Positions 7,053-13,027 of a stretch of DNA of 33,343 nt are shown piece by piece. This stretch comes from a virus. Below the pieces are notes generated by a model, which saw only the letters and a program-made list of their open reading frames with translations, was not told the DNA's origin and made no database searches. The stretch's first letter is position 1. Every line of letters begins with the position of its first letter. The DNA lies in IMG/VR virus record IMGVR_UViG_3300006790_000009, positions 1 to 33,343 of that record. One strand, written 5' to 3'. A program made the translations under genes and the position numbers.

Positions 7053-7112
7053 ACCAATCACTAAAAGGCGAAAGTCAAGTCCTACGCGACTTGACTTTTG
7101 CCTGTGATTGGT
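7053..7112. repeat. Long near-perfect hairpin between two leftward genes
   Basis: Three stacked helices: ACCAATCAC/GTGATTGGT (7053-7061 with 7104-7112), AGGC/GCCT (7066-7069 with 7100-7103) and AAAGTCAAGTC/GACTTGACTTT (7071-7081 with 7088-7098). That is 24 pairs, a four-base bulge on one side, one G-T opposition and a six-base loop. No T-tract follows on either strand, so it is not an ordinary terminator. It begins six bases after the stop of the 85-residue gene and may be an RNase III processing site, a message-stabilising structure or a protein-binding site. Confidence 0.75.
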
Positions 7113-7118
7113 AGCGGT

Positions 7119-7376
7119 TTATCTTTCGTTTTCTGCATCATATGTTATCGCTTCAACATGGATCTTCTGTTCCAGAAAACACTGCTCTCTCAAAAGTTCA
7201 TACTTTTTACGTTTAGCAGTTTTTTCTGCTACTCGTATCGCAGTCATCAAAAACCTGTCGCAGTGTTCATAACCTCTGCACGTGAAAAACTGAGATGATT
7301 CCTGCATCCTTCGGATTTCAGTCATCAACTCATCGTATTCACGCTGCATTCGGTTTATAGTATCTAGTTCACTCAT
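7119..7376 (-). CDS. Unknown small coiled-coil-like protein
   Basis: 85 residues. AAGGAG lies ten bases before ATG 7376. The sequence is almost wholly helical and charged, with heptad-like leucines, isoleucines and methionines (MQREYDELMTEIRRMQ near the start, AEKTAKRKKYELLREQCFL later), so a helical hairpin or coiled coil is likely. Cysteines at about 33, 39 and 66 do not form a recognisable metal site. It is the first leftward gene after the 7377-8118 control region and would be co-transcribed with the structured RNA if that is read leftward. Function unknown. Confidence 0.7.
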   Translation of the reverse strand: MSELDTINRMQREYDELMTEIRRMQESSQFFTCRGYEHCDRFLMTAIRVAEKTAKRKKYELLREQCFLEQKIHVEAITYDAENER

Positions 7377-7446
7377 ATCTATATCTCCTTATGATTTATT
7401 GAACACCTTCAGTTCATCGTTAGGAAACCCATAGGTCATGACTTGG

Positions 7447-7480
7447 TGACGTTTCGTCATCTCCGTATGACGTTACGTCA
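7447..7480. repeat. Two TGACG-N3-CGTCA inverted repeats
   Basis: TGACGTTTCGTCA (7447-7459) and TGACGTTACGTCA (7468-7480) are tandem palindromes eight bases apart. Together they also make one long hairpin (7443-7484). Related copies lie at 8012-8024 and 8034-8046 near the other end of the structured region, and at 11-23. Confidence 0.6.
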
Positions 7481-8011
7481 CCAACCGAAGGACAGACATT
7501 CAGAGCCACTTGGCACACGGAACAATAAAAATGTGTCACGCATGGCGTGACTCACTAACGCTTGTGCCAAGTCCGAATGAATGTCGTGGTCTTTGACCTA
7601 TGGGATCGACTGACGTGAGCTTGACAGACGCGAGTATGCTCGCCCTGTCAAACTCACCCAGTCAATCTTGTTTCCGCTGATATGTCCTTGGCGAAGTAGA
7701 ATGGGGTGAATTGCCTCGACCACTCCTCGCCAGTAATCTCTGAAGAGATTACGAATCAGGCGAGTCGACTGTCGGCAATTTAGGCTGCCAAAAGTGGGAA
7801 CGGCAGCCGACCCCTTGCCCCATCGGGGCAAATGGTCATTCCCCATTCACTACATGCAACCCCCGTGTTGCTTTGCGAATCTGCCATTGCATGGCAATGG
7901 GCAGACCTACCTTCTGCCTTTCCTATCGGCCATAGCCGTAGGAAACAGGAAGGTAGAGTCCTGATTCGCAAAAGAGAGGGTTGCAACGTGTCAAGCCGTA
8001 GAATCATTGAG

Positions 8012-8046
8012 TGACCCCACGTCACAACCAGAGTGACGCTACGTTC
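8012..8046. repeat. Two degenerate TGACG-N3-CGTCA inverted repeats
   Basis: TGACCCCACGTCA (8012-8024) and TGACGCTACGTTC (8034-8046) match the motif seen twice at 7447-7480 and once, perfectly, at 11-23 (TGACGCTACGTCA). They flank the right side of the structured region. Confidence 0.45.
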
Positions 8047-8088
8047 GGTATTGACAAGAGATCTTGTTTTGGTGCTTTCTGGGGGGGA

Positions 8089-8119
8089 ACTATATGGGGG
8101 GGCATCCAAAGGATCACAA
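8089..8119 (-). promoter_or_regulatory. Candidate leftward promoter for the structured RNA
   Basis: Read leftward: TTGTGA (8119-8114), 19 bases, then TATAGT (8094-8089, five of six matches to TATAAT). Transcription would start near 8082 and run into the structured region. The site overlaps the terS ribosome site on the opposite strand, giving a divergent arrangement. The -35 is weak and the spacing long, so this is tentative. Two seven-base G runs (8081-8087 and 8096-8102) flank the -10. Confidence 0.3.
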
Positions 8120-8496
8120 TGAATGATATCTTAAATAGAAAATTGACACCAAAACAAGAGGCTCTTGTGGATACACTTGTAGCCTCTGGTTGTTCGGTCA
8201 CTCAAGCTGCAAAAGATGCTGGATATGCCAAGGGTGAGTCTGGAAGAGTCAGTGCTTTCAAAGCCTTACGCCAACCGCATGTCCAACAGTATATGATGAG
8301 AAGAATCAGTGAGCAGTTGGGAATGAATGCTACGGTTGCTGCTGCAAGGGTGATGCGGTTAGCTACAGGCGCGAAGAGTGAGTATGTGCAGCTGGAAGCC
8401 AGCAAGGACATACTCGATCGAGCAGGATATAAGCCTATAGATAGATCCCAAGTGCAGGTGGCTGGTGATATCAAGGTGTCCATTGATTTAGGCTAA
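8119..8496 (+). CDS. terS: Terminase small subunit
   Basis: 125 residues from ATG 8119 (MNDILNRKLTPKQEALVDTL), with AAAGGAT upstream; the longer reading from 8011 crosses the structured region and has no ribosome site. Residues 8-45 follow the small-terminase pattern (TPKQEALVDTLVASG, then TQAAKDAGYA), an N-terminal helix-turn-helix that recognises packaging DNA. The middle is the helical oligomerisation region, and the end (DILDRAGYKPIDRSQVQVAG) is typical of the segment contacting the large subunit. It is separated from terL by nine small genes, which is unusual but seen in some podoviruses. First gene of the rightward late block. Confidence 0.85.
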   Translation: MNDILNRKLTPKQEALVDTLVASGCSVTQAAKDAGYAKGESGRVSAFKALRQPHVQQYMMRRISEQLGMNATVAAARVMRLATGAKSEYVQLEASKDILDRAGYKPIDRSQVQVAGDIKVSIDLG

Positions 8497-11307: not shown

Positions 11308-11504
11308 GCTTTGTAAATACTTTGAAGGCAGAAGAGCTTACTATGCTTCGAAGAATTGTGAAGAAAGTACATTTTCAACACTTTGATGAAAAGCATGGTA
11401 AGTCTTTTGTAAATAATAAAATGATAGACAATGTAATCGAAAACATTGGTCCAGAAGTTGTTGAGAAGATGATTAAGTCTGGAGTTGACAAGGGGCTGCG
11501 CTAG
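11304..11504 (+). CDS. Small protein preceding terL
   Basis: 66 residues from GTG 11304 (GTGA overlap with the previous stop). Two predicted helices, TLKAEELTMLRRIVKKVHFQ and KMIDNVIENIGPEVVEKMIK, separated by a Lys/His turn. Its TAG stop shares its last base with the GTG start of terL (TAGTG), so it is tightly coupled to terL. Small coupled genes directly before terL are common in marine podoviruses, but their function is not known to me. Confidence 0.72.
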   Translation: MSFVNTLKAEELTMLRRIVKKVHFQHFDEKHGKSFVNNKMIDNVIENIGPEVVEKMIKSGVDKGLR

Positions 11505-13027
11505 TGGTCAATTTTAAATATAAACCAGATGGTAATGTTCTTAAATCATTTATGAAGAATGATATGTTCTTTCGAGGCATTCGAGGACCAGTAGGATCTG
11601 GCAAATCAGTGGGGTGTTGCGTTGAAGTATTTCGCAGAGCTTTGGAACAAAAGAAAGCACCAGACGGAAAACGAAAATCCCGATGGGCTATTATACGAAA
11701 CACAAACCCACAGCTACGAACTACAACTATTAAAACATGGCTTGATTGGTTCCCAGAAAATGATTGGGGAAAGTTCACTTGGTCAGTTCCCTACACCCAC
11801 AACATCAAAAAAGGTGAAATCGAGCTAGAGGTTATCTTCTTAGCATTAGATAGACCAGAAGATGTAAAGAAGCTTTTATCTTTGGAACTAACAGGGATAT
11901 GGATCAATGAAGCAAGAGAAATACCAAAATCTATTATTGATGCTTGTACTATGCGTGTTGGTCGTTATCCTTCGATGCGTGATGGAGGTCCATCTTGGTC
12001 AGGGGTAATATGTGATACTAATGCCCCTGAAGAAGATCATTGGTGGCCTATAATGTCAGGCGAAGTTCCTGTTCCTGATCATATACCAAGAGAACAAGCA
12101 AAGATGTTAGTTAAGCCAGATAACTGGGAGTTCTTTACGCAACCCAGTGGTATGCTTGAAATAAGGGATGAAGATGGAGAAGTGTCCGACTATAAGAATA
12201 ATAAGGAGGCAGAAAATACAAAACATATGCTTTCTAACTATTACTCTAATTTAATTAGGGGGAAGACAAAAAGTTGGATTGATGTTTATGTAATGAATAA
12301 ATTAGGTTCTATCCAAGATGGAAAGCCCATATATCCAATGTTTGCACCAGAAGTCCATATTGCAAAAGAAGAAATAGCTGTTGCGGCAGGTGCGCCTTTA
12401 TACGTTGGTCTGGACTTTGGGCTTACTCCAGCAGCCACTCTTGGACAGAAGATCAGAGGTCGCTGGCTTGTGCAGTCTGAGATAGTGGCCTTTGATATGG
12501 GGATTGTTAGATTCGCCGAGGTGTTGCGTGAGGAGATCTCCTCCCGATTTTCCCAAGCATCTGAGGTGTATATATATGGCGATCCTGCAGGGGACTTTAG
12601 AGCGCAGACAGATGAATCCACTCCCTTTCATATTCTGCGTGGTGCAGGTTTGAGGGCATTCCCTGCCCCTTCTAACTCTGTTGACCTTCGGTTGGAAGCT
12701 GTCTCTTCCCAGTTAACAAAGATGGTCGAGGGCAAACCTGCATTTTTAATTGATAGAAGATGCCCCCAGTTAATCAAAGGATTTGAAGGAGGTTATCAAT
12801 ATAGACGTATGGAAGTGAGTGGCGAAAGGTATGCAGATAAGCCAGATAAAAATATGTACTCTCATATTCATGACGCTTTACAATATATGATGCTTGGAGC
12901 AGGAGAGGGTCGTGCTTTACTTAATACTCAAAAGCAAGCCAAGCCTGTTGTTGCTACTAGAAATTTTGATGTATTTAACAAAAGGCCAGTAAAAGGTAGA
13001 CGCCAAGGACTTTGGGCTAGATTATAA
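11504..13027 (+). CDS. terL: Terminase large subunit
   Basis: 507 residues, GTG start. ATPase domain: Walker A GPVGSGKS (28-35), Walker B hydrophobic strand LTGIWINEA with catalytic E136, and the N-terminal adenine-binding region. Nuclease domain: D304 (VGLDFGLTP), D360 in YIYGDPAGDFRAQTD, and D457 in HIHDALQYM, the three acidic residues of the RNase-H-like headful or cutting domain. It pumps DNA into the prohead and cuts concatemers, partnered by the small subunit at 8119. The family resembles other podovirus Terminase_3/6 proteins. The gene ends at the TTGTGCGTTG element. Confidence 0.95.
   Translation: MVNFKYKPDGNVLKSFMKNDMFFRGIRGPVGSGKSVGCCVEVFRRALEQKKAPDGKRKSRWAIIRNTNPQLRTTTIKTWLDWFPENDWGKFTWSVPYTHNIKKGEIELEVIFLALDRPEDVKKLLSLELTGIWINEAREIPKSIIDACTMRVGRYPSMRDGGPSWSGVICDTNAPEEDHWWPIMSGEVPVPDHIPREQAKMLVKPDNWEFFTQPSGMLEIRDEDGEVSDYKNNKEAENTKHMLSNYYSNLIRGKTKSWIDVYVMNKLGSIQDGKPIYPMFAPEVHIAKEEIAVAAGAPLYVGLDFGLTPAATLGQKIRGRWLVQSEIVAFDMGIVRFAEVLREEISSRFSQASEVYIYGDPAGDFRAQTDESTPFHILRGAGLRAFPAPSNSVDLRLEAVSSQLTKMVEGKPAFLIDRRCPQLIKGFEGGYQYRRMEVSGERYADKPDKNMYSHIHDALQYMMLGAGEGRALLNTQKQAKPVVATRNFDVFNKRPVKGRRQGLWARL

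Follow-up and report, generated by a model that had tools for sequence, protein, structure and literature searches.

An intergenic region of an uncultured phage (IMG/VR virus record IMGVR_UViG_3300006790_000009; the window is the entire stretch of 33,343 bases that was analysed) was found to hold a conserved RNA-type secondary structure, with homologues in two phage lineages and a conserved orientation. It is best explained, with a probability of about 0.55, as an undescribed large RNA (domains A–C, 7423-7985, plus strand) that heads the late, terminase-first transcript and is followed by a set of helices, domain D, which may gate terS, the gene for the terminase small subunit. As to its general kind, it would be a large structured phage RNA, in that a multi-domain structure supported by covariation was found without a coding function.

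Genomic setting of the structured region

The left gene block of the window (ERF, YqaJ, DUF932) is on the minus strand, and the right, late block is on the plus strand, with terS (8119-8496; PF03592, phrog_51), terL (11504-13027), a head-tail adaptor and the major head protein. Between a minus-strand ORF (7119-7376) and terS, the 5′-end of which belongs to domain D, there is an intergenic gap of 742 nt (7377-8118). The RNA (∼560 nt; domains A–C, ∼7423-7985) is located there, at the point where the early (minus-strand) and late (plus-strand) genes diverge. A preliminary description of this DNA had noted about 740 bases with no credible gene, which agrees both with the size of the gap and with the fate of the four ORFs of 56-109 amino acids followed within it: these are not conserved, frameshifts or stops breaking them in some or most relatives. 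The G+C content had been described as higher than that of the late genes, and was indeed 0.52 at 7501-8000 vs about 0.32-0.41 for most late-gene windows. ARAGORN detected no tRNA genes in the window. A strong inverted repeat (23-nt arms, 83% complementary) was seen at 7053-7112, between two minus-strand genes; the 200-nt stretch around it has a fold z-score of -8.1.

Judged by the terL of the window, Pelagibacter phage EXVC031P Hodr is the closest isolate found (66% identity); its intergenic stretch at the corresponding place measures only about 340 nt and lacks a G-tract element. The relatives used below are metagenomic contigs with no identified host; the label ‘aquatic’ derives from the nearest isolates and from the marine MAGs that carry relatives.

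Fold and covariation among near relatives

The plus strand of 7400-8080 is predicted to fold with a minimum free energy (MFE) of -296 kcal/mol (z -16.9), and none of 20 shuffled sequences was as stable. For 7422-7990, z was -13.9 and none of 100 shuffles reached it, in keeping with the earlier claim that the nested helices are beyond chance. The fold of the minus strand was also far below its own shuffles (z -11.8), which is expected since the helices are mostly Watson-Crick (1667 of the 1716 shared cells).

The window and its near relatives were aligned over 7422-8207 (alignment A3, eight sequences, in which L166/L006 is one relative joined from both ends of one contig). The 252 consensus pairs are 97.8% intact across the eight sequences. 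Changes on both sides were seen in 23 of them, vs 11.4 in shuffles (0/500 reached 23), and when the partners were slid only 0-2 compensatory pairs remained. Whole arms have been gained or lost between these relatives (a hairpin at 7606-7664 and an extension of helix P2, both described below), and one arm has been wholly rebuilt, being CACUUGGCAC/GUGCCAAGUC in the window and CAUUAGUCGC/GCGACUAAUC in L164.

Domains A, B and C

Domain A (7423-7675) is closed by GGAAAC (7423-7428) and GUUUCC (7670-7675). The helix proposed earlier at 7428-7438/7594-7604, with two arms inside, was confirmed: it holds a hairpin (7443-7484) and a long arm (7495-7585), and 4 of 14 pairs are compensatory. The stretch 7508-7572 of the long arm is closed by helix 7508-7517/7563-7572 and contains the hairpin GUCACGC (7535-7541)/GCGUGAC (7545-7551). 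In this arm, eight of nine pairs are compensatory over seven sequences and 61 of 63 alignment cells are paired, with three G-U and no A-C; these pairs were registered by hand, the tool alignment (A7) being two columns off for the window group. In groups that have domain B, L346 and L351 included, the arm recurs and precedes the domain B loop by 111-229 nt. A 61-nt hairpin inside domain A (7606-7664) is optional, being present in the window, L084 and L165 and absent from the other five sequences of A3. The architecture of domain A is repeated with other helices in L341.

The core of domain B (7687-7823), described by covariance models R1 and R2, is a three-way junction. Its order in the window and in L341 is an unpaired ACGCGAUAGCUGAC, P1, P2, UUUA, and P3 with AAAA and a GNRA tetraloop. 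In the window these helices are P1 at 7703-7707/7810-7814, P2 at 7708-7715/7774-7781 and P3 at 7783-7789/7802-7808, with the AAAA bulge at 7790-7793 and the GNRA loop, GGGA, at 7796-7799. An extension of P2 by about 56 nt (7722-7769) is optional and is absent from L085/L086 (A3 and cmsearch alignments). Four of the five P1 pairs change on both sides across lineages. The MFE fold does contain the helix 7699-7706/7841-7848 of the preliminary description, yet none of its pairs has changed on both sides; P1 is the better-supported pairing, because the same bases covary across lineages in P1 and never in 7699-7706/7841-7848. In the R1 alignment, 13 of 24 pairs are compensatory over 10 sequences. 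In alignment A8, which adds L351, L346 and L186 and was fitted to R1, so that its counts lean to that structure, the value rises to 19 of 24 over 14 sequences, with a covariation score of 0.567 vs 0.200 in shuffled and at most 0.10 in slid controls.

Domain C (7866-7985) has a closing helix, UUGCGAAUC (7873-7881)/GAUUCGCAA (7963-7971), and variable inner arms. Its CGAATCTG...CTGATTCG recurs in L203, L351 and L346 and in L195, L199, L204 and L336, and the closing helix was also found at loci with no recognisable domain B. No covariance model was made for domain C, as the groups have only the closing helix in common.

The proposal of a large multi-domain structured RNA is thus borne out by compensatory change both within the nearest group and across lineages of unrelated primary sequence; the suggested check for covariation among homologues gave a positive result in the near group (23/252 pairs), domain B (19/24) and the domain A arm (8/9). 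The end proposed at 8056 turned out to be arbitrary, since domains A–C span ∼7423-7985 and further long-range helices run from 8007 to 8205, into terS.

Remote relatives and the wider family

At least 24 contigs, including those of a second phage lineage (L351 and L346), carry a recognisable domain B core, and one more gave a weak match; R1 matched in several groups with unrelated primary sequence. L341 has only 62% identity over 219 nt, yet its fold z-score is -8.2 and the domain B core is present. L351 and L346 were added by a loop-pattern scan of IMG/VR; R1 matched both, neither being in the R1 alignment, with E about 1e-14, a rough value given the brief calibration of R1 and R2. The fold z-score of L351 6850-7550 was -17.1. 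Neither contig has a close terS relative, nor the G element or the other downstream control elements. In L346, the RNA and terL are both on the minus strand and the other gene block is divergent; in L351, the RNA likewise points away from the block that carries the phrog_2554 gene. A loop match in L350 was set aside as due to chance (the stem pairs poorly; 16 bits). When isolate phages and plasmids were searched at the nucleotide level, the window RNA gave only a 31-nt chance match in NinG genes, and the homologues from L351 and L197 had no match in isolate phages.

In a survey of 90 loci, the stretch of 450 nt that precedes the G element had a median z of -5.1 on either strand, and coding control stretches had medians of -0.6 and -0.1. 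Values below -4 were obtained on the plus strand for 61% of the 90 loci vs 1-2% of the coding control stretches (12 shuffles each; the loci are not independent, and locus counts here do not equal counts of independent events). R2 found no further member among 190 loci; therefore, most leaders of the family are structured but are too diverged, or are a different RNA.

Short elements shared with other phages were also seen. A hairpin-rich one in the RNA region of L341 (3069-3127) matches a microvirus (KT264808.1; MH572438.1 = L354 601-653), in which it sits between the scaffolding and replication-initiator genes in a stretch with no annotated genes; TTCACGACAGC elements related to it occur in 14 of 177 upstream regions. 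Another, ACTCACC-GAA-GGCAGAG...CTCTGTTCATGAGT, located at 7536-7581 in L351, is common to phages of the window family (L048 1090, L293, L302, L148).

Strand, control segment and dual G-tract element

Reading of the functional RNA from the plus strand, i.e. in the direction of the late genes, is favoured, though not proven, because pairs with only G-U departures outnumber those with only A-C departures when read on that strand (34 vs 16, P = 0.015; pairs predicted from both strands, 11 clusters, control segment left out), because the domain A arm has G-U and no A-C pairs, and because the tetraloop GGGA is of the GNRA type on the plus strand only (it reads UCCC on the minus strand). Against this, in two of the larger clusters the alignment, with the control region left out, is more stable on the minus strand. 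On the plus strand, no sigma-70-like promoter stood out, and no terminator-like site was found between the RNA and terS.

Downstream of domain C lies a control segment (7989-8056, plus strand). It opens with TGTCAA (7989-7994) and ends with TTGACA (8051-8056), and between these hexamers are palindromic sites near 8009-8022 and 8031-8044. The two palindromic sites are 22 nt apart and conserved through the family (family alignment and pattern scan); placed upstream of TTGACA, they look like operators. Palindromes of the TGACGNNACGTCA type are repeated in the window, at 8009-8044 and also at 7447-7459 and 7468-7480. The flanks of TGTCAA and TTGACA extend the complementarity to 8-11 bp in 34 of 175 loci. 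Divergent promoters at these hexamers were considered and rejected, no -10 hexamer being seen in the family alignment.

The control segment is followed by a dual G-tract element (GGGGGGGAACTATATGGGGGGG, 8081-8102, plus strand), which is mirror-like, most often GGGGGGAGAGAGGGAGAGGGGGG; it follows TTGACA by 24-25 nt, precedes terS and could form a G-quadruplex. Two pattern scans yielded 135 testable loci. The G element is present at every one, and at 126 terS follows within 400 nt; at eight of the remaining nine, the sequence stops no more than about 210 nt from the motif, too early for a complete terS. Five contigs (L102, L108, L107, L091 and L115) have their first base at or within the G element, L115 starting with 52 C; there may be a physical DNA end here or a stop in sequencing or assembly. 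In a wider census of 130 contigs, only a few ends fell at the element. An exact 23-nt G element was also seen at 12484-12506 of L286, a 137-kb contig, with no TTGACA or terS match nearby.

Domain D and predicted pairing with terS

In the window, the control segment is joined by four nested helices to the opening 87 nt of terS (8007-8015/8197-8205, 8024-8033/8184-8193, 8048-8059/8163-8174 and 8060-8074/8147-8161, plus strand). They form domain D (8007-8205; z -5.8), inside which lie the G element and the start codon of terS. In eight relatives, terS is nearly invariant over these 87 nt and synonymous changes resume downstream. At 28 of the 90 loci, terS codons 8-14 can pair over 9-13 bp with the spacer before the G element; the helices have at least six different sequences, and the G element lies 15 to 117 nt from terS. 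In controls, about 4% of swapped pairings and 0.6% of shuffled ones reached ≥9 bp. The predicted helices reaching into terS are supported, but more weakly than the structure of the RNA itself. The spacer/terS helix was not found in the other two thirds or so of the 90 loci, so control of terS cannot be general; the comparison supports control by pairing as a candidate only for the groups that have this helix.

Comparison with known RNAs

A cmscan search against Rfam 15, GOLLD and ROOL included, gave no match at the gathering threshold. The only hits were unrelated weak ones, with E up to 10 in the window and up to 1 in the L351 homologue; TD-1, HCV, snoZ221 and mir-1265 were discarded as far below thresholds. 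With no match for either sequence, the suggestion of a divergent GOLLD or ROOL member was not upheld, and the other suggestion made at the time, a new class, is the reading that fits. A literature search, with subscription journals mostly outside its scope, returned no account of this RNA, and an earlier description is possible.

Among phage RNAs, the phi29 pRNA (120-174 nt, one three-way junction), which the packaging motor requires, is associated with packaging; a packaging role is an improbable candidate reading for the window RNA. The put and EAR antiterminator RNAs are structured leaders of about 75-125 nt at the head of operons; no Rfam 15 family matched the window RNA, which therefore was not assigned to them. 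OLE is similar in being highly structured and about 600 nt long, but has no Rfam match in the window RNA and is found mostly in Bacillota (PMC12054373). A CBASS activator of the cabRNA type binds a CdnE cyclase and activates it. The cabRNAs of staphylococcal phages are structured, about 400 nt long and derived from the terminase region, but they lie inside the terS-terL coding sequence and the known examples have no homology to each other (PMC10686824), whereas the window RNA precedes the coding sequence as a noncoding leader, and its fold is conserved.

GOLLD, which is characterised by a homo-oligomeric cage, resembles the window RNA in being phage-borne, several hundred nt long and aquatic, with many junctions and a less conserved 5′ part. 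However, its covariance model did not match, and the window RNA stands where early and late genes meet, next to those for the terminase. GOLLD is often, though not always, near tRNA genes or has a tRNA in its linker, and no tRNA genes are present in the window. ROOL resembles the window RNA in being phage-borne, ornate, about 600 nt long and with no known function, but its covariance model did not match either and no shared motif was seen. The amount of GOLLD rises during phage lysis, and ROOL, often located near tRNA islands, can equal 16S rRNA in abundance (PMC12286853).

Proposed function and alternative explanations

The transcription start, the control of terS and the partners of the RNA are features that we infer. 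The RNA would be made as the 5′ part of the late, terminase-first transcript and would fold while being made. In the window's group, domain D would pair with terS codons and fold up the start region of terS as a long hairpin, which would make translation of terS dependent on the state of the RNA. Domains A–C, in which loops are conserved and stems change, would be the part for binding or assembly, and may act also after processing. Among the points against this, domain B is unrecognisable in most relatives that keep a structured leader, and L351 and L346 have no close terS relative downstream.

Ranked next after a leader of the late transcript, and rather unlikely, is a free, trans-acting ornate RNA, in which domains A–C are cut or terminated off the late mRNA and, like GOLLD and ROOL, accumulate in late infection as a stable RNA or an assembly of RNAs, the position at the operon head only setting the timing. 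Such an RNA would account for a size and complexity like those of GOLLD and ROOL, for the insertion and loss of whole helices, for loops that are conserved while stems change, and for the retention of the RNA in L351 and L346 outside a terS context; the lysis-linked rise of GOLLD and the abundance of ROOL cited above are further points in its favour. However, no terminator or promoter of its own was found, the Rfam models of GOLLD and ROOL did not match, and in the window's own family the RNA is always tied to the terminase operon. That terS and the G element are near-invariable neighbours, that five contigs begin at or inside this element and that the RNA is co-oriented with terL in L346 too could point instead to a region that marks or assists DNA packaging, either through a pRNA-like RNA or as a cos/pac region that is recognised or cut at the dual G-tract. 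This is quite improbable given that only a few ends in the census of 130 contigs fell at the element, the fact that poly-G contig ends can be sequencing or assembly stops, and the presence of the RNA without the G element in L351 and L346.

The functional RNA might also be a minus-strand transcript running leftward from near 8000 into the early genes, since TGTCAA at 7989-7994 is the complement of the -35-like TTGACA and the minus strand has a fold z-score of -11.8. This is more improbable still: the G-U over A-C counts favour the plus strand, the GNRA loop would be UCCC, no -10-like hexamer lies beside TGTCAA in the family alignment, and domain D requires plus-strand mRNA. Finally, perfect and mostly Watson-Crick helices, together with palindromic sites at a spacing of 22 nt, could be expected of a DNA-level element, in which clustered palindromes serve protein binding, replication or recombination, and template switching, not selection on RNA, keeps the arms alike. 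RNA is indicated, and a DNA element made very improbable, by multi-branch nesting, by the combination of changing stems and constant loops in unrelated sequences, by a leader/terS helix that varies in its spacing and by G-U outnumbering A-C.

Returning to the leader of the late transcript, its boldest form is one that we advance tentatively: a new class of large phage RNA would head the terminase operon in at least two lineages and couple folding to the onset of late expression or to packaging. Domains A–C would act as a conserved RNA machine, and some members of the family would have a 3′-end co-evolved with terS codons that holds the terS start closed. RNAs of such size and complexity are very few in bacteria and phages, and the function of GOLLD and ROOL is still open. 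For the window RNA a test of function is feasible, with its defined terminase surroundings, conserved loops and changing stems, a calibrated core model and, in part of the family, a contact with terS. The 61% of the 90 relatives with z below -4 suggests that a large group of uncultured phages has an RNA-structured late control region.
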